Below are positions 1-15,046 of a stretch of 64,000 nt of DNA, one piece after another. This DNA is from Ruminococcus sp. (GTDB taxonomy: Bacteria; Bacillota; Clostridia; Oscillospirales; Acutalibacteraceae), in the NCBI GenBank assembly GCA_022768065.1, contig JALELS010000009.1, forward strand, positions 1 to 64,000, given 5' to 3'. Both the position numbers and the translations under genes were made by a program. How positions within the stretch are numbered: position 1 is the first letter of the stretch; each line of letters begins with the position of its first letter. Below the pieces are notes generated by a model that saw only the letters and a list, made by a program, of their open reading frames with translations, did not search any database and was not told the DNA's origin.

Positions 1-210
1 CATAAAAGAAACCCCTTTAGGGGTAGCTGAAAAAACAATGCAGTCGGCAAACCTTTTCAGCGCCCCTTGAGGGGGTTGTTTGTAATGCGCCCTTCTAGGG
101 CGACTCAAGCCTCCGGCTTAGCCGGAGGTCCTGACTGTCACTTTTGATGTCTCGTCCGAATAATATGGTATCGAAAGGTTGCACAAATAAACTATAAGGA
201 GAAATATCTG

Positions 211-453
211 TTGAACGAATTTTTGGATTTCTGCGAAAAATCTCTCAGAGCCGAAGACTCAGGCGACTGCTGCCCGGTAAATCCGTCGAGCGAGTACCTC
301 GGCATATCGCCTCTGCCAGAAAATACGGTAACGGCAATGGCTTACGTCCCGTTTCAGACAAATACGACGATGTATGACGTTGAAACAGGATATAAAAACG
401 GCACCGTGTTTACGGACCTTAATAAGCCGTTCTTAGGGGGGAGATGTATATGA
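211..453 (+). CDS. cotJA: Spore coat associated protein CotJA
   Basis: 80-aa ORF with '...YVPFQTNTTMYDVETGYKNGTVFTDLNKPFLGGRC' typical of CotJA; overlaps cotJB-like and cotJC-like ORFs. Confidence 0.85.
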   Translation: MNEFLDFCEKSLRAEDSGDCCPVNPSSEYLGISPLPENTVTAMAYVPFQTNTTMYDVETGYKNGTVFTDLNKPFLGGRCI

Positions 454-704
454 ATACGAGAAAAGCCATGCTTTTAAAACTCGGTTCTCTTCAGTTCTCG
501 CTTTGGGAACTGCATCTCTATCTCGATACACATCCTATGGATACCGCCGCCGAGGCGCGTTACCGGGGGTATAAAAAATGTTACGATGAAGTGAGAGCCG
601 AATTTACGGAGAAATACGGACCGCTGAGTCCCTCCGAGGGCAACGGTGAAAAATGGCTGAAATCGCCGTGGCCTTGGGAAAAACAAGAGGAGTGTGTTAA
701 ATAA
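444..704 (+). CDS. cotJB: Spore coat protein CotJB
   Basis: 86-aa ORF 'LQFSLWELHLYLDTHP...', between cotJA and cotJC. Confidence 0.88.
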   Translation: MYMNTRKAMLLKLGSLQFSLWELHLYLDTHPMDTAAEARYRGYKKCYDEVRAEFTEKYGPLSPSEGNGEKWLKSPWPWEKQEECVK

Positions 705-1321
705 TGTTTTCGTATGAAAAAATGCTGCAATATCCGGTAAATATAAAAAATCCAAATCCCAAATACGCTCAGATAGTATTAGAGCAGTACGGCGGTCCCG
801 ACGGAGAACTCGGCGCTTCGCTGCGTTATCTCTCACAGCGTTTTTCAATGCCTTGTCCCGAACTTAAAGGACTTCTCACCGATATCGGTACCGAGGAGCT
901 CGGACACCTCGAAATGATAGGCGCAATAGTTTATCAGCTTACGAGAAATCTCTCTGTTGAAGAAATTAAGAAGGGTGGATTTGACGCATATTTTGTAAAT
1001 CATACAACGGGAGTGTACCCGGCAGGGGCAAACGGTATGCCGTTTAACGCAGGCTCTCTTGCTTCTAAGGGCGACGTCATAACGGATCTTCACGAAAATA
1101 TGGCGGCGGAACAAAAGGCGCGAACCACATATGACAATATTCTGAGGCTTGTTGACGACCCCGATGTCAGAGACGCCATAAAATTCCTGCGCGAGCGCGA
1201 GATAGTCCATTATCAGCGATTCGGCGAAGGACTCAGAATTGCCACCGACAAGCTGAACGAAAAGAACTTCTACGCCTTTAATCCGAGCTTTGATACAAGA
1301 TGTAACAGGAAAATGCGCTGA
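704..1321 (+). CDS. cotJC: Manganese catalase family spore coat protein CotJC
   Basis: 'MFSYEKMLQYPVNIKNPNPKYAQIVLEQYGGPDGELGASLRYLSQRF...DIGTEELGHLEMI' is characteristic of CotJC. Confidence 0.93.
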   Translation: MFSYEKMLQYPVNIKNPNPKYAQIVLEQYGGPDGELGASLRYLSQRFSMPCPELKGLLTDIGTEELGHLEMIGAIVYQLTRNLSVEEIKKGGFDAYFVNHTTGVYPAGANGMPFNAGSLASKGDVITDLHENMAAEQKARTTYDNILRLVDDPDVRDAIKFLREREIVHYQRFGEGLRIATDKLNEKNFYAFNPSFDTRCNRKMR

Positions 1322-1382
1322 TTTGGGTACGGCTTCTTTTCACTATAAGACTCGTACCCATATGTAAATATATAAAATAAAG

Positions 1383-1412
1383 ACCGTTCTGCTTTTTCGG
1401 AACGGTCTTTAA
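1383..1412 (+). terminator. Rho-independent terminator after cotJABC
   Basis: AAGACCGTTC-TGCTTTTTC-GGAACGGTCTTT hairpin plus T-run. Confidence 0.8.
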
Positions 1413-1556
1413 TATGTCCGCAAAAACGGACGTTTGATGTGTTTCAACACAAAACTCGGTTTACACCCGCAGTTTTATATGATAAAATAACAACAGTGCG
1501 GTCTATATAGGGCGCGGTATTGCCGTGGTGTCGCCTTTCGGCACAATCCCGAGGAA

Positions 1557-1668
1557 AATAAAAAGACCTGCCAAAAGCAGGTCTTAACTCACACACTGTG
1601 AGGTTTCCGAAGCAACGGTTAGAATAAATTTTTATTTGAACTCGTAGTGTAATCTCGGTACTGAGATT
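1557..1668 (-). ncRNA. Type II CRISPR tracrRNA
   Basis: Plus-strand 1634-1667 (ATTTGAACTCGTAGTGTAATCTCGGTACTGAGAT) matches the array repeat in blocks TTTGA / GTAGTGTAAT / GGTACTGA, so the minus transcript is an anti-repeat. It is followed on the minus strand by CAAATAAAAATTTATTCTAACCGTTGCTTCGG, hairpin CTCACAGTGTGTGAG, and terminator AGACCTGCTTTTGGCAGGTCTTTTT. Confidence 0.9.
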
Positions 1669-1674
1669 ATCTAC

Positions 1675-1703
1675 ATCATAACATCTTGTTTCGGTTTTGT
1701 CAA
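1675..1703 (-). promoter_or_regulatory. Sigma-70/A-type promoter for tracrRNA
   Basis: Minus strand TTGACA (1703-1698), 17-nt spacer, TATGAT (1680-1675), 7 nt upstream of the inferred RNA 5' end. Confidence 0.85.
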
Positions 1704-1752
1704 CACTGTTTTTCACTCAATGAGTGTAATATATTTTTAAAGGAGAATTTTT

Positions 1753-3060
1753 ATGGGTAAAAATTTGCGGAATGTGGATTACGATTATTATTTGGGTCTT
1801 GACATCGGGTCCGATTCTGTTGGATGGGCTGTAACTGACGCGGATTACGTCATTCCGAAGTTCAAAGGAAATGCTATGTGGGGCGTTCATCTTTTTGATG
1901 AGGGACAAACCTCGGCTGAACGCAGAGGTTTCAGAAGCGCAAGAAGGCGTACTCAACGAAAAAAAGAGCGTTTATCGCTTTTGGAAATGCTTTTTGATGA
2001 AGAAATTTGCAAAAAGGACTGTACGTTTTTCAGACGGCTTCACGAGAGTAATTTGTGGCCGGAGGACAAGTCCGGCGATGATAAATACGCCGTTTTTGCA
2101 GACGAAAATTATACGGATAAGGACTTCTGCAGGGAATATCCGACAATATATCACCTGAGATACGAGCTTATTAAAAATAAAGAGCCGCATGATGTTAGGC
2201 TTGTCTTTTTAGCCCTTCATCATATCATAAAAAACAGGGGACATTTTCTCTTTGATTCCCTGTCGTCGGCTAAAGACTTTGATTCGGCATACGGCGCTTT
2301 GTGTTCTTATCTCGGCGACAACGAAATACAGCTTAATTGTTCCGATATCGAGCAGTTTAAAAACATATTAAAGGACAGGCATCAGGGTAAAGTCGAAAAG
2401 ACAAAAAATCTTGCTTCGCTTTTCGGTATAACAAAAAAATCGGACCCCGTTTCTTTTGCCGTAATGGCCGTTCTAAGCGGCTCGACGGTTAAGATGTGTG
2501 ATTTGTTTGACGATGACGAACTCAAAACAGCAGAGAAGAACAGTATATCGTTTAAAAGCGGCTACGAAGAAAACGAAGAAATATACGCGTCCGTTTTAGG
2601 CGAGCGTTTTGAGCTTGTCGAGCTTTTAAAGGCGGTATACGATTGGGCTGTACTCGCCGACATTTTAGACGGCAAGAAGTATATCTCCGAGGCAAAGGTC
2701 GCCGTATATGAAAAACATAAAAATGATTTAAAAACGCTTAAAAAATATGTCAAAACGTATTTACCCGAAAAGTATAACGAGATATTTAAAATAAGCGACG
2801 GCAAATGTGACAATTATGTGGCGTATTCCGGTCACATTAAAGAAAACGGCAAAACAGGCGAACTAAAAAAGACCTGTAATTCCGAGCAGTTCTGCGATTA
2901 TCTTAAAAAGCAGCTCGGCCAAAACGCCGACCCGTCATACAAAGAAATGTTTGACGAAATCGAGAATAAGACCTTTATGCCGAAGCAAGTGACAAAGGAT
3001 AAGGTACTGAAACATAATGTCAGACAACACTTGATTAGCAGATGTTTGAGAGTAGTGTAA
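1753..3060 (+). pseudogene. cas9: Cas9, 3'-truncated: N-terminal RuvC-I, bridge helix and partial REC lobe, fused to CRISPR repeat/spacer
   Basis: 'YYLGLDIGSDSVGWAVTD' (RuvC-I), 'ERRGFRSARRRTQRKKERL' (bridge helix), 'LALHHIIKNRGHFLFD'; Cas9-like until '...KTFMPKQVTKD', then the frame enters 'ATAAGGTACTGAAAC' (repeat 3' half) and a spacer and stops inside the first full repeat. No HNH, RuvC-II/III or PAM-interacting domain. Confidence 0.93.
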
Positions 3061-3935
3061 TTCTATAAGGTACTGAAACTGCATTATACCGTCTTTGCCC
3101 CTCGCCTTTGTTTGAGAGTAGTGTAATTCTATAAGGTACTGAAACTTCGGACTTGTGATATAAATGACTATACATGTTTGAGAGTAGTGTAATTCTATAA
3201 GGTACTGAAACTTCGGACTTGTGATATAAATGACTATACATGTTTGAGAGTAGTGTAATTCTATAAGGTACTGAAACTGCAACTTACTTTGCGCAACGTG
3301 AGCTTAAGTTTGAGAGTAGTGTAATTCTATAAGGTACTGAAACGTGCTAAATCTTGTTAAGGCTCCCTCTCTAGTTTGAGAGTAGTGTAATTCTATAAGG
3401 TACTGAAACCTAAAAAGATTTAATACAAGGGCACTAACGTTTGAGAGTAGTGTAATTCTATAAGGTACTGAAACTTTGTCATTTCAATTTGTTATAGCTC
3501 CCTCGTTTGAGAGTAGTGTAATTCTATAAGGTACTGAAACCGTTGGCAATAAGCTCATCAAGTTTAGACTGTTTGAGAGTAGTGTAATTCTATAAGGTAC
3601 TGAAACTATATGCGAGACTAATAACGGCACTGCACAGTTTGAGAGTAGTGTAATTCTATAAGGTACTGAAACAAATCCCGAAAACATTATGCTCGTCTCC
3701 CAGTTTGAGAGTAGTGTAATTCTATAAGGTACTGAAACGAAAGCGCAAAAGTCAGCACCACAGAACAGTTTGAGAGTAGTGTAATTTCATAAGGTACTGA
3801 AACACGGGTGTGAAGAATCCGACACCCAGGAAAGTTTGAGAGTAGTGTAATTCTATAAGGTACTGAAACAATGGCGACGGTGCACGAATAGGCTCAAGTG
3901 TTTGAGAGCAGTGCAGCCATAATCGAGGTATTTTT
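2999..3935 (+). CRISPR. Type II CRISPR array: 13 full 36-nt repeats, a 15-nt partial repeat at the 5' junction, a degenerate terminal repeat, 14 spacers of 29-30 nt
   Basis: Repeat GTTTGAGAGTAGTGTAATTCTATAAGGTACTGAAAC starting at 3044, 3110, 3176, 3242, 3308, 3374, 3439, 3505, 3571, 3637, 3703, 3768 (variant TTTCAT) and 3834; terminal degenerate GTTTGAGAGCAGTGCAGCCATAATCGAGG at 3900. Repeat decay at the 3' end supports transcription on +. Confidence 0.99.
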
Positions 3936-4430
3936 ATGAACAAAAAAGACGTGAATACTTCTTACGGTAAGAGCAGCGGTTTTTTCGCCGAAAGGACAAA
4001 AACCCGTCGAAAAAGCAAAACTCTCTGTACGGCTTTGTATCTGTCGATTGCTTTTGTTATTTGTGTTGCTGCCGCAATTTTAATATGGCGCGGCATACAA
4101 AATCATAAAACCGGTTATCGCAGTACGCTGCCGGGCGCCGAAAAGGTCTATCCTACAGTTATGGTCGACGGCTCTTTGTACGAGTGGTACAAGGGCGCCG
4201 CAATATGCGATGATTTGCCGCAGGACTGCGTTTTTTACGGTGATATTAAATATGTTGCGAAAAAGACTCCGAAAAATGATTGCGAGTTTTCCGCCGCTTT
4301 CGACGCCGAGGGACAAATTTACAAAGTGCCCGACGAAGCTTCGGTGTATCTTGTGCTTACAACATATTGGCTCAGCAATACCGTTGTTAAATTTGACGCT
4401 GTAAGTACCGCCGTTTCGGAGCTTTTATAA
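3936..4430 (+). CDS. Hypothetical protein with N-terminal transmembrane segment
   Basis: ORF starts immediately after the degenerate terminal repeat; SD-like GAGG lies inside that repeat. Confidence 0.65.
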   Translation: MNKKDVNTSYGKSSGFFAERTKTRRKSKTLCTALYLSIAFVICVAAAILIWRGIQNHKTGYRSTLPGAEKVYPTVMVDGSLYEWYKGAAICDDLPQDCVFYGDIKYVAKKTPKNDCEFSAAFDAEGQIYKVPDEASVYLVLTTYWLSNTVVKFDAVSTAVSELL

Positions 4431-4452
4431 TAGTTATATTTTGCCGCCGCTA

Positions 4453-4577
4453 TTGACTTAGCGGCGAAATGGTGCTATATTACATACCGATAAAACAACG
4501 TATGGATTTTTCCGGTCTTAAAAAGATGTGTTTTCGCCATGCAATTATTCGAGAATGAGTAATTGCGTGGCTTTTTT
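4453..4577 (+). promoter_or_regulatory. Leader with promoter, short uORF and intrinsic terminator upstream of MATE gene
   Basis: TTGACT-17nt-TATATT (4453-4481); uORF 4502-4558 (MDFSGLKKMCFRHAIIRE*); hairpin GCCATGCAATTA...TAATTGCGTGGC plus T6 (4536-4577). Confidence 0.6.
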
Positions 4578-4622
4578 AATTGTAAGAGGAAGTCCGCTGG
4601 TCAGAAAGGCAGATGTGTTTGT

Positions 4623-11322: not shown

Positions 11323-11882
11323 AAATTTCCTCCCGTCCGAAAAAGAACTTAATCTTTATTCCCCTTTAATTATTGCTTTTAATTCACCGAGTGCCCGACA
11401 ACACAAGCAAAATTGTGTAAAGTATATTACATTTACACTACTGTTTTTCTTATTGACCGAGCAGATAAAAAATCGGCAAAAACCGCTGTGCTGCGTTATC
11501 AAGTGATACTGTACGGCGTTTTTTGAAAAATCACGAAAAACAGCACGTGTAAAGATTATAACTTTACAGGTTTTAAAACATAGGCTTTAAGATGTCAAAA
11601 TGCCACAGTAAAGCGGTAAACAATATATTGGAATTATAATACAAAAATAGGCAGGTGTCAATTATAAAAATTGAATATTATAACTAAATTCAAAGCCCGA
11701 AAATAAAATCAAAGGAGACTTCGGTTCCCGTATTTTTACCGCTGTATTGTGCGAAAAAGTTAAAATGGAGCTTTTTTAATTTTTTCTTAATAATTTCGGC
11801 TTCTGTTTGTAATTTTGCGGTGATATATATTGTATCGTAACGAAGGATATATAACCTTGTTTGATTGTAAGGAGAATTTCAA

Positions 11883-12110
11883 ATGAATATACAGTATGAT
11901 TTTAAACCTGCCGTTTCGGATATGCGAAAAGAGAAAATTAAGAGCCGCCTTTTCGGACTTTTTATAACTCTGTTTATTGTATCCGCTCTGTTTATAAAAA
12001 TGTTTGTCTATATTCCGGTGCTGAATGAGCATCCGACATTGGGCGAGAGCCAAAAGGATACCTCTCACGTTATGGCGGCTGACAATATTCCGCAGAATAT
12101 TATGCCGTAA
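11883..12110 (+). CDS. Hypothetical small membrane protein
   Basis: 75-aa ORF with SD (aaggag) and one hydrophobic segment. Confidence 0.5.
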   Translation: MNIQYDFKPAVSDMRKEKIKSRLFGLFITLFIVSALFIKMFVYIPVLNEHPTLGESQKDTSHVMAADNIPQNIMP

Positions 12111-12377
12111 AGCCGTACACACGAAAATATAAGTTTTTGCGACTGCCGTGCCGAGTGCACAGCGGTCGCTTTTTCTTATACATTATATATAGCATTTGCG
12201 TTGTGCAATCGCACTAAAAAAACGTGACGGAAACCGTCGTTTTGTACTAATATACAAAAGTTGTAGGAAGTGACAAAAAAATCGGCTCAACTATTGACAA
12301 AACGACAATACGGTTATAAGATATGTACAAATAAAGAAAGCAATACTTGTGCAATAGATACAAAGCGAGGACCCAAA

Positions 12378-13115
12378 ATGGCAGAAATCATCAAATCAAT
12401 GAATTTAGTAAGCGTATTTAAACAGGAAAAAGGCGCTAAACGCTTTTTTATGATGATATTCAGTATACTCCTTATGGGCTTCGGCATTTCGCTTTTCTCT
12501 TATTCCGATATGGGCGTTGACCCGTTCACATCAATGAATATGGCAATAAGCGGCAAAATCGGTATCAGCTTCGGTTTTTATCAGATGTGCATTAACTGCG
12601 TTATTCTTATTGCGATTGCTTTTCTCGGCAGACGTCTTATCGGCGTAGGTACCGTAGTCAATATGGTCGGCGTCGGTTATATCTGCGAATTTTTCACTTC
12701 GCTTTACAATATGTATCTGCCTGCCGAAAAGAACTTTGCCGTACGCTTAGTCTTAATGCTCCTCGGCGTAATTTTCCTCTCTCTTGCGGCTTCGATGTAC
12801 TTTACTTCGGATCTCGGAGTTGCTCCCTATGACGCCACGGGCTTTGTCCTTGATGACAGGACTAAGATTAAATATAAATGGTGCAGAGTCATAACAGACC
12901 TTATCTGCACAGCTGTCGGATTTGCTTTCGGCGGTCCGGTAGGCATCGGCACGGTAGTTACCGCCTTTATGATGGGTCCGGTAGTTACATTCTTCAATAA
13001 GCATGTGTCGGAAAAACTGCTTGCCGCAAAATTGCCGAGACTTGTCGTTCATGTCTATGACCTTCGCCGTTTCGGCGGTGGGGTAATATCCTCAAACGGC
13101 AAATTCGCAGCGTAA
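12378..13115 (+). CDS. YczE/YyaS/YitT-type integral membrane protein
   Basis: 'GFGISLFSYSDMGVDPFTSMNMAISGKIGISFGFYQ...'; upstream promoter TTGACA-17nt-TAAGAT. Confidence 0.8.
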   Translation: MAEIIKSMNLVSVFKQEKGAKRFFMMIFSILLMGFGISLFSYSDMGVDPFTSMNMAISGKIGISFGFYQMCINCVILIAIAFLGRRLIGVGTVVNMVGVGYICEFFTSLYNMYLPAEKNFAVRLVLMLLGVIFLSLAASMYFTSDLGVAPYDATGFVLDDRTKIKYKWCRVITDLICTAVGFAFGGPVGIGTVVTAFMMGPVVTFFNKHVSEKLLAAKLPRLVVHVYDLRRFGGGVISSNGKFAA

Positions 13116-13336
13116 ATCGGCTTATTCCATTTCCTCTCTTTTTATACACTTTTCTACGGCAGATTGTCTGCCACGGCTGCTTTTTGTTCTCCACACTTAA
13201 AGCAGTAAAAAATGCCACCGTAAGGTGGTATTTTTTTATATGTTTTTAAATATGATGTGTATTGACTTTAAATACGCTTCGGATTAGTATTAGTGTTGTT
13301 ATATAGGATTTTACGGTTTTTGAAAGGAAGATTTGC

Positions 13337-13672
13337 ATGAATGAAATGTGCGATAAGCTGATAATTGCCGTGCTGACAAACGACGACGCAACCGAGGCTG
13401 TACATCACCTTAACGAAAAAGGCTTTTATGCGACGACAATGAGTTCCGCCGGCGGTTTCTTGAAAAAAGGAAATGTGACTCTTATGGTGGGGCTTAACAG
13501 TCAGCGCCTTTCCGAGGCTGTCGATATTTTAAAGAGATACGGCAAGAGCCGTATGGACTCGTCTTTTCTGCCGACTACGGGGATTGTAGGGGCGGTTTCT
13601 TCTCCGGTGAAAGTGCAGTGCGGCGGACTTACCGCCTTTGTACTCGATGTGGATAAAACAGTAAAATTTTAA
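13337..13672 (+). CDS. darA: PII-like cyclic-di-AMP receptor, DarA/YaaQ family
   Basis: 'KLIIAVLTNDDATEAVHHLNEKGFYATTMSSAGGFLKKGNVTLMVGL' is the YaaQ/DarA signature. Confidence 0.85.
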   Translation: MNEMCDKLIIAVLTNDDATEAVHHLNEKGFYATTMSSAGGFLKKGNVTLMVGLNSQRLSEAVDILKRYGKSRMDSSFLPTTGIVGAVSSPVKVQCGGLTAFVLDVDKTVKF

Positions 13673-13690
13673 GATTAAAGAGGAAGTTTT

Positions 13691-15046
13691 GTGTCAAAGA
13701 CGAAAAAAATCATACAGGATTAGGATTTTTTCGGAAAAGAAAAAATAAGTAAAATACTTTTAAAAATAGCTCCGCCGGTTATGCTCGCACAGCTCATACA
13801 GGCGCTTTATAATATTGTTGACAGCTTTTTTGTGGGACGTTATTCGGATGACGCGCTTACGGCTGTTACGGTAATTTATCCGATGCAGCTTATAATAATA
13901 GCCCTCGCTGTCGGTACGGGTGTCGGAGTAAATACCTATATGGCGCGAAAGTATGCACAGGGGAATACCGTAAAAGCGGATGAGGCAGCGGGTACCGGTA
14001 CGGTGCTTGCCGTAATCTCTTGGGCGCTGTTCGCCGTGTTTGCCGTTCTTGTGATGCGGCCGTATGTCAAAACTTCGGCGACGGAACCGGGCGCTGTGGC
14101 AGACGCCGTTTCATACGGCAGAATTGTGTGCATAGGCAGTCTCGGAACATTTTTGGAGGGCAATTGGACCAAGGTTCATCAGTCACGCGGAAATATGCGT
14201 TTGCCGATGGCGGCGCAGATACTCGGCGCGCTTACAAACTGTATTCTTGACCCGATTCTTATCTTCGGTGCGGGTCCCATAAAAGCTATGGGCGTTTCGG
14301 GCGCGGCTTATGCCACGGTTGCCGGGCAGGTTTTGGCTGCCGTTATAACCGGTGTAAAAGGATACAGAAAACCGCCGAAATTAAAGCGTATGCTCTATTA
14401 TGCCGGGCGTATTTATCACTACGGCTATTCTTCCATAATAATGCAGCTTTTGTATACCGTATACATACTTTTACTCAATATCATATTATCGGGATTTTCC
14501 GATGCGGCGGTTACGGTGCTCGGGCTTTATTACAAAACGCAGAGCTTTTTCTTTATTCCTCTTTTCGGGCTTCAGACCTGTGTTGTGCCTGTGCTGAACT
14601 TTAACTGCGCACGCAAAAATTACGCGCGGTGCCGAGAAACCATGAAGGATTCAATCCTTATATCCGTTTTGTTTATGCTGCTCGGAATATGCTGTTTCGT
14701 ATTTTTGCCGACACAGATGATGCACTTGTTTTCAAAGTCTGAGCTCGTTCTCGAAATAGGTCGCACAGCTTTTCCGATAATAGGCAGCAGTTTTATAATG
14801 GCTGTATTCTCGCTGATGATGCCGGTGTTTTTCCAGGCGATAGGAAACGGATTTTTAAGCTTGCTGTTGTCTTTGATAAGACAGATTTTCTGCCTTGTTC
14901 CCGTGTTTTGGCTTCTCTCGAAAATAGGTCTTAATTACGCCTGGATTGCATTCCCCGTGGCGGAGACGGTTTCGGGGGCAATCGGCATAGTGCTTTACAG
15001 GCGGCAGATATCCAAATGGAAAAAGGAAGAAGCCGGGCTGTCTTAA
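13691..15046 (+). pseudogene. MATE family transporter with in-frame TAG at codon 11
   Basis: GTG(13691)-SKTKKIIQD-TAG(13721-13723)-DFFGKEKISKILLKIAPPVMLAQ...; frame otherwise open to 15046. Next in-frame ATG is 13781, inside the first membrane segment. Confidence 0.75.

Follow-up and report, generated by a model that had tools for sequence, protein, structure and literature searches.

The tracrRNA gene that stands beside a truncated cas9 in the window (the whole stretch of 64,000 nucleotides analysed here) is most probably, with a probability of roughly 0.86, the passive relic of a type II-A CRISPR-Cas locus that would have been emptied by a single deletion mediated by the tetranucleotide ATAA. 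At the level of sequence, this reading draws on the anatomy of the gene, the deletion junction, searches of the assembly that returned no other Cas9 and no Cas1, conservation within the tracrRNA family and independent parallels in other genomes. It would have the deletion real and fixed in the strain, and the RNA presumably transcribed and used by nothing.

The gene lies on the minus strand and is composed as follows.

1675 to 1703, minus strand: tracrRNA promoter, TTGACA (1703-1698), a 17-nt spacer and TATGAT (1680-1675)
about 1560 to 1668, minus strand: tracrRNA, about 109 nt, start and coordinates as predicted from the promoter
1634 to 1664, minus strand: anti-repeat, with duplex blocks at 1664-1657 (8 nt), 1654-1644 (11 nt) and 1640-1634 (7 nt)
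1603 to 1616, minus strand: site of the first, nexus-like hairpin, of reduced stability in the window
1588 to 1602, minus strand: second hairpin, CTCACA-GTG-TGTGAG, unaltered and kept in relatives
1557 to 1585, minus strand: intrinsic terminator, a 10-pair stem (1585-1563) followed by a T run

The promoter, in which a TG precedes the second hexamer, matches at 11 of 12 positions and is the top of 10 promoter-like sites in 1300-4000, and the terminator is the top terminator-like site in the same interval. Both elements had been described in an earlier note on this DNA, together with a tracrRNA of roughly 110 nt, and all three descriptions are borne out. The three-block anti-repeat reported there is recovered as well, its blocks of 5, 10 and 8 nt being the cores of anti-repeat/repeat blocks of 7, 11 and 8 once G-U pairs are counted. 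Co-folding of the anti-repeat with the 36-nt array repeat (GTTTGAGAGTAGTGTAATTCTATAAGGTACTGAAAC), a check that the note had suggested, gives -29.8 kcal/mol (RNAduplex), compared with -16.0 ± 2.9 kcal/mol and a minimum of -28.3 for 1000 dinucleotide shuffles. The anti-repeat is also the top pairing site in the first 9 kb (array masked), the runner-up reaching -23.4 kcal/mol. An RNA of about 109 nt is probably still made from this gene.

In nine aligned relatives, a tracrRNA is found at the same place, on the minus strand and directly upstream of cas9, and the relatives with a matching tracrRNA have the same repeat family as the window. The CACTA and GTTCAAATAA segments are invariant in the alignment and the -35 TTGACA is present in all members. 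A covariance model built from ten tracrRNAs of the family finds the window gene at 1560-1669 with 108.8 bits, the window's own sequence being one of those ten, and matches 15 of 148 relatives and 25 of 396 genomes of the order (the window's genome counted in both). An Rfam search of window positions 1-4600 gave no credible match. Changes in the anti-repeat are matched by changes in the repeat of the same lineage (TCAGTACC versus GGTACTGA in the window, ACTACC versus GGTAGT in relatives). This covariation, together with the presence of promoter, anti-repeat and terminator, argues that the window tracrRNA was functional until recently, a point that weighs against the relic reading.

The earlier description of the gene as intact stands for the transcription unit, which is complete, but not for 4 nt of the upper stem, one invariant base and the first hairpin. 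The 4 nt, present in most relatives between ACC and GAGATTA, are missing from the window's anti-repeat, so that the upper duplex has an asymmetric internal loop. Since the same stretch is also variable in L022, L023 and L027, this loss alone does not amount to decay, and the energy of the window duplex is near that of L019/L020 (-30.1 kcal/mol). The altered base is an A>T change at alignment column 55; differences at columns 13 and 17 both depend on how the 4-nt gap is aligned. Among the downstream hairpins of the earlier note, the second is confirmed, but the first, probably the positional counterpart of the nexus, is nearly without pairing in its homologous form (-0.2 kcal/mol), and a shifted 3-bp CCG/CGG stem is available there at -3.0 kcal/mol. 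In the nine relatives, with energies of -2.0 to -8.4 kcal/mol, the same hairpin has 4-5 bp, as it does in the relics G054 (-7.1 kcal/mol) and G344 (-7.7 kcal/mol) discussed below. In type II-A systems, contact between nexus and Cas9 is reported to matter (PMC11417352). Overall, the transcription unit of the window tracrRNA is complete but carries two or three changes, either lesions or peculiar to the lineage, and its small lesions fit incipient decay.

On the opposite strand, what is left of cas9 runs directly into the array.

1753 to 3060, plus strand: truncated cas9, 416 cas9 codons (1753-3000) and 19 codons of array sequence
2999 to 3002, plus strand: deletion junction ATAA, common to cas9 and repeat
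2999 to 3013, plus strand: partial repeat at the junction, its last 15 nt
3014 to 3043, plus strand: first spacer after the junction
3044 to 3869, plus strand: 13 full repeats and spacers
3900 to 3930, plus strand: degenerate terminal repeat, the leader-distal end of the array

The frame stops at 3058-3060 and encodes a 435-residue product. Its cas9 part is matched by Pfam Cas9-BH and by the initial portion of Cas9_REC; against the 1397-residue solved Cas9 8pj9 it aligns over residues 4-406, about 29% of the protein being left. The remnant comprises 416 of about 1330 residues: the start of RuvC-I, the bridge helix and a portion of REC. By the order of domains in Cas9, RuvC-II/III, HNH and the PAM-interacting domain are absent from it, as is the remaining REC lobe, which upholds the earlier claim of a truncated cas9 without a functional nuclease.

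The fragment matches relatives through FMPKQVTKD, after which relatives read GATAACGG and the window GATAAGGTACTGAAAC, which is the 3' end of the repeat; in a longer reading of the junction, relatives have ...AAGGATAACGG and the window ...AAGGATAAGGTACTGAAAC. In L018, L019 and L024, 4671-4738 bp separate this point of cas9 from the first repeat (L020 is shorter, 3399), and by this comparison about 4.7 kb is missing from the window, corresponding to the rest of cas9, cas1, cas2, csn2 and the leader. The leader is placed inside the deleted interval because in L018 about 65 bp separate the end of csn2 from the array, and it is absent from the window, where the array opens with 15 nt of repeat joined to cas9 codon 416/417. 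Spacer adaptation would therefore be impossible and the usual crRNA promoter lost. The junction creates a plus-strand promoter-like sequence facing the array (GTGACA-18-CATAAT, 2989-3018, 10 of 12), a match that is within chance, 10 sites being found versus 5.5 expected. The spacers of the array are 30 nt long. Two successive repeat-spacer units at 3109-3240 are identical, a 132-bp tandem duplication, and the L026 array likewise has two identical successive units.

Could the join be an assembly artefact or a minor allele, in an organism that has a complete system? The assembly is in 32 contigs and repeats can mislead assemblers, but no other contig contains the missing 4.7 kb, the array with its 30-nt spacers was assembled through, and cas9 and repeat share only 4 nt at the join. 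A k-mer assembler would not create a join from so short an overlap. An artefact or minor allele is accordingly very unlikely, and an assembly chimera is not favoured in view of the 4-nt overlap and of a missing interval found nowhere else.

The deletion reading would run as follows. Within a type II-A CRISPR-Cas locus, illegitimate recombination at the 4-nt microhomology ATAA, between cas9 codon 416/417 and a CRISPR repeat, would have produced one large internal deletion, taking the last two-thirds of cas9, cas1, cas2, csn2 and the leader, possibly along with leader-proximal repeat-spacer units. The tracrRNA gene, facing outwards at the 5' edge of the operon and outside the deleted interval, would have survived passively with its promoter and terminator. 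An array transcript, if any, could still pair with the tracrRNA and be cut by RNase III, but without a functional Cas9 the tracrRNA and crRNA could not direct interference. Survival of the tracrRNA needs no selection in this scheme, since the gene sits at the outer edge of the operon, outside the repeat-bounded interval.

How long ago this might have happened can be gauged from the cas9 fragment, which has neither stop nor frameshift over its 416 codons and a single change at 55 columns that are invariant in the other 15 proteins. Relatives show 0 to 5 changes at these columns (8 in one divergent member, a near-duplicate having been dropped), and since 1 in 55 is comparable to these functional relatives, the fragment shows no excess change at conserved sites. 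About 4% of random substitutions in coding sequence create a stop, and arithmetic on stops alone (none in 1248 bp) would put neutral divergence since the deletion roughly below 6%. The recent deletion envisaged in the earlier note agrees with these figures; the data are compatible with a fairly recent deletion or with constraint on the cas9 fragment.

The same note had raised the possibility that the RNA is used with a Cas9 encoded elsewhere; the array might or might not be kept for it too. The preserved promoter, duplex and terminator would suit this, and an orphan array of E. faecalis works when given a matching cas9 and tracrRNA (PMC4894674). However, the window's genome (1.92 Mb in 32 contigs, 96.8% complete, 0 contamination) contains no candidate: a Cas9 N-terminal query found only the window fragment, as did NCBIfam cas_Csn1; a query with the Cas9 C-terminus, Cas1, Cas2 and Csn2 found no match, whereas three control genomes were positive; Pfam Cas1 detected no Cas1 of any type. 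The suggested check for another type II cas9 in the genome thus returns the window fragment only, and the proposal is contradicted in this assembly. A functional type II-A system comprises a complete Cas9 with RuvC and HNH, cas1, cas2, csn2 and a leader, which the window's genome lacks, and the second compatible Cas9 that would let an orphan array act in trans is absent from the 96.8%-complete assembly. With the first hairpin of the window tracrRNA weakened as well, use by a Cas9 in trans is highly improbable. The genome has no second copy of the repeat and no second array. A self-targeting spacer was considered as a cause of the loss of the locus and rejected, there being no spacer with a full-length match in the organism's own genome: exact matches reach 17 nt at most, and the best partial one covers about 31 nt at 81% (E 5.4). 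Comparison of the array with phage records gave no matches.

The preferred reading of a passive relic gains from two other genomes. G054 (L110) has kept the tracrRNA body and terminator with no cas9 match; on its plus strand, ...GAACTCACAGTGTAATTCCATAGGGGTCTCAAAC is followed by one spacer and then GTTTGAGAGCAGTGTAATTTCATAGGGG, the anti-repeat being joined to the 3' end of a repeat.

L110:9236-9409 (C5): anti-repeat/repeat hybrid, then one spacer and a repeat

Recombination between anti-repeat and repeat would account for this arrangement, with loss of the tracrRNA promoter, of cas9 and of most of the array in this genome. In G344 (L141, C10, about 11747-14304), a tracrRNA scoring 80 bits, within the range of the other systems, lies beside a cas9 with a frameshift, which breaks off near residue 596 at DNA carrying a fragment of a phage-type integrase gene, and cas1, cas2, csn2 and an array are absent within the 18 kb read. 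The window, G054 and G344 are three different routes to a tracrRNA outliving cas9, and because two distant relatives show similar leftovers, the state of the window looks like ordinary decay. Each of the 25 tracrRNA-bearing genomes of the order sample has cas9 at least in part; several short Cas9 matches sit at contig ends and are uninformative, but there are clear internal ruins. No second genome with the window's cas9 truncation was found.

These parallels bear directly on a further suggestion of the earlier note, that the RNA is maintained for binding by the bridge-helix/REC remnant. In this reading, the Cas9 remnant would bind the tracrRNA or the tracrRNA:repeat duplex in a non-nuclease regulatory role. 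The open frame of the fragment, the lack of excess change at its conserved sites and the complete tracrRNA unit are what would be expected, but the remnant ends near residue 406 of 1397, without RuvC-II/III, HNH, the PAM-interacting domain and the remaining REC, and the same truncation occurs in no second genome. Since the tracrRNA survives without a Cas9 remnant in G054 and with a frameshifted one in G344, its retention lends binding by the remnant no support; such binding is possible in principle, and a regulatory role through it is extremely unlikely. Another reading, beyond those of the note, dispenses with Cas protein altogether, the tracrRNA and the array transcript forming a stand-alone antisense or regulatory pair. 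Orphan arrays elsewhere can be transcribed, and Listeria rliB has a regulatory role (cited in PMC4894674). Yet the leader of the window array is deleted and no conserved tracrRNA and array without cas genes was seen among the 25 genomes of the order sample and 15 relative genomes that have this tracrRNA, which leaves an RNA pair with an exceedingly small probability. Taken jointly, a nuclease-free regulator made of truncated Cas9, tracrRNA and array remnant, or a stand-alone tracrRNA/array antisense pair, arising after the loss of immunity, is given a very low probability. That the RNA is maintained is therefore not earned, G054 and G344 having kept the tracrRNA body without Cas9 or with a frameshifted one; a residual function of the RNA finds no argument in the present data, and demonstrated function there is none.

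Immediately beyond the tracrRNA gene, an intact cotJC (704-1321) lies about 240 bp from the tracrRNA terminator, with the CRISPR relic directly downstream. In the same-genus genome G006 (L026:5177-15720, C4), a complete type II-A system is found inside a serine-recombinase element that splits this spore-coat gene at about codon 64, a site used in several same-genus genomes. The order is cotJA-cotJB-cotJC', large serine recombinase (Resolvase, Recombinase and Zn-ribbon domains), tracrRNA-cas9-cas1-cas2-csn2-array, 'cotJC, with about 9.9 kb between the cotJC halves and a GGTA core at both ends. An element with a related serine recombinase splits cotJC at the same site in L111 (G026 C8) and L112 (G021 C8), with a relaxase and a large surface-type protein as cargo in the former and an ABC transporter in the latter. 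In L113 (G034 C2) and L114/L115 (G030 C10), a whole cotJC upstream is accompanied by a second cotJC 3' fragment, respectively 5.4 kb and about 28 kb downstream, which looks like a former intervening element with cotJC restored. Gene-intervening elements excised during sporulation are known in Bacillus and Clostridium, e.g. gin (PMC5595907), and the L026 element is possibly one of these, carrying CRISPR-Cas9, its excision being putative; the papers searched contained no example of such a cargo. A complete type II-A system within a cotJC element is more unusual than the window relic. A common origin of the two is a possibility, although their proximity to cotJC may be coincidence, and no cotJC fragment or recombinase was found near the window relic, a recombinase match being absent from the window.

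As an example of how a type II-A system may die, the window indicates that deletions ending in a repeat or anti-repeat take away the nuclease and adaptation genes while sparing the outward-facing tracrRNA; from good preservation of a tracrRNA, neither a working Cas9 nor a new function of the RNA can be concluded. Its closest points of reference are the type II-A loci L018, L019, L024 and L026 (cas9-cas1-cas2-csn2 with a divergent tracrRNA), which share with it the position and strand of the tracrRNA, the repeat family, the first 416 Cas9 residues and an array at the far end, but from which it differs in lacking cas1, cas2, csn2, the leader and all but the first third of cas9. Nothing specific on orphan tracrRNAs or degenerate type II loci emerged from a search of the literature. 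E. faecalis CRISPR2 (PMC4894674), the nearest precedent that has been put to experiment, resembles the window in being an array without a working cas operon, with no expected self-sufficient defence. However, it is a long-lived, species-wide locus, whereas the state of the window is found in one genome, which has a tracrRNA gene of its own and part of a cas9 but no sister cas locus. In the tracr-L/scaRNA systems (PMC11417352, PMC6199352), too, a tracrRNA gene adjoins cas9 and the locus is type II-A-like, but their regulation needs a complete Cas9 and the window has a fragment. A long form similar to tracr-L is unsupported, the only strong promoter starting the RNA at the anti-repeat, with no 5' guide segment. 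Finally, G054 and G344 are like the window in that a tracrRNA body and terminator outlive cas9, and unlike it in that G054 has lost the tracrRNA promoter and all of cas9, while in G344 cas9 is frameshifted and has no array nearby.
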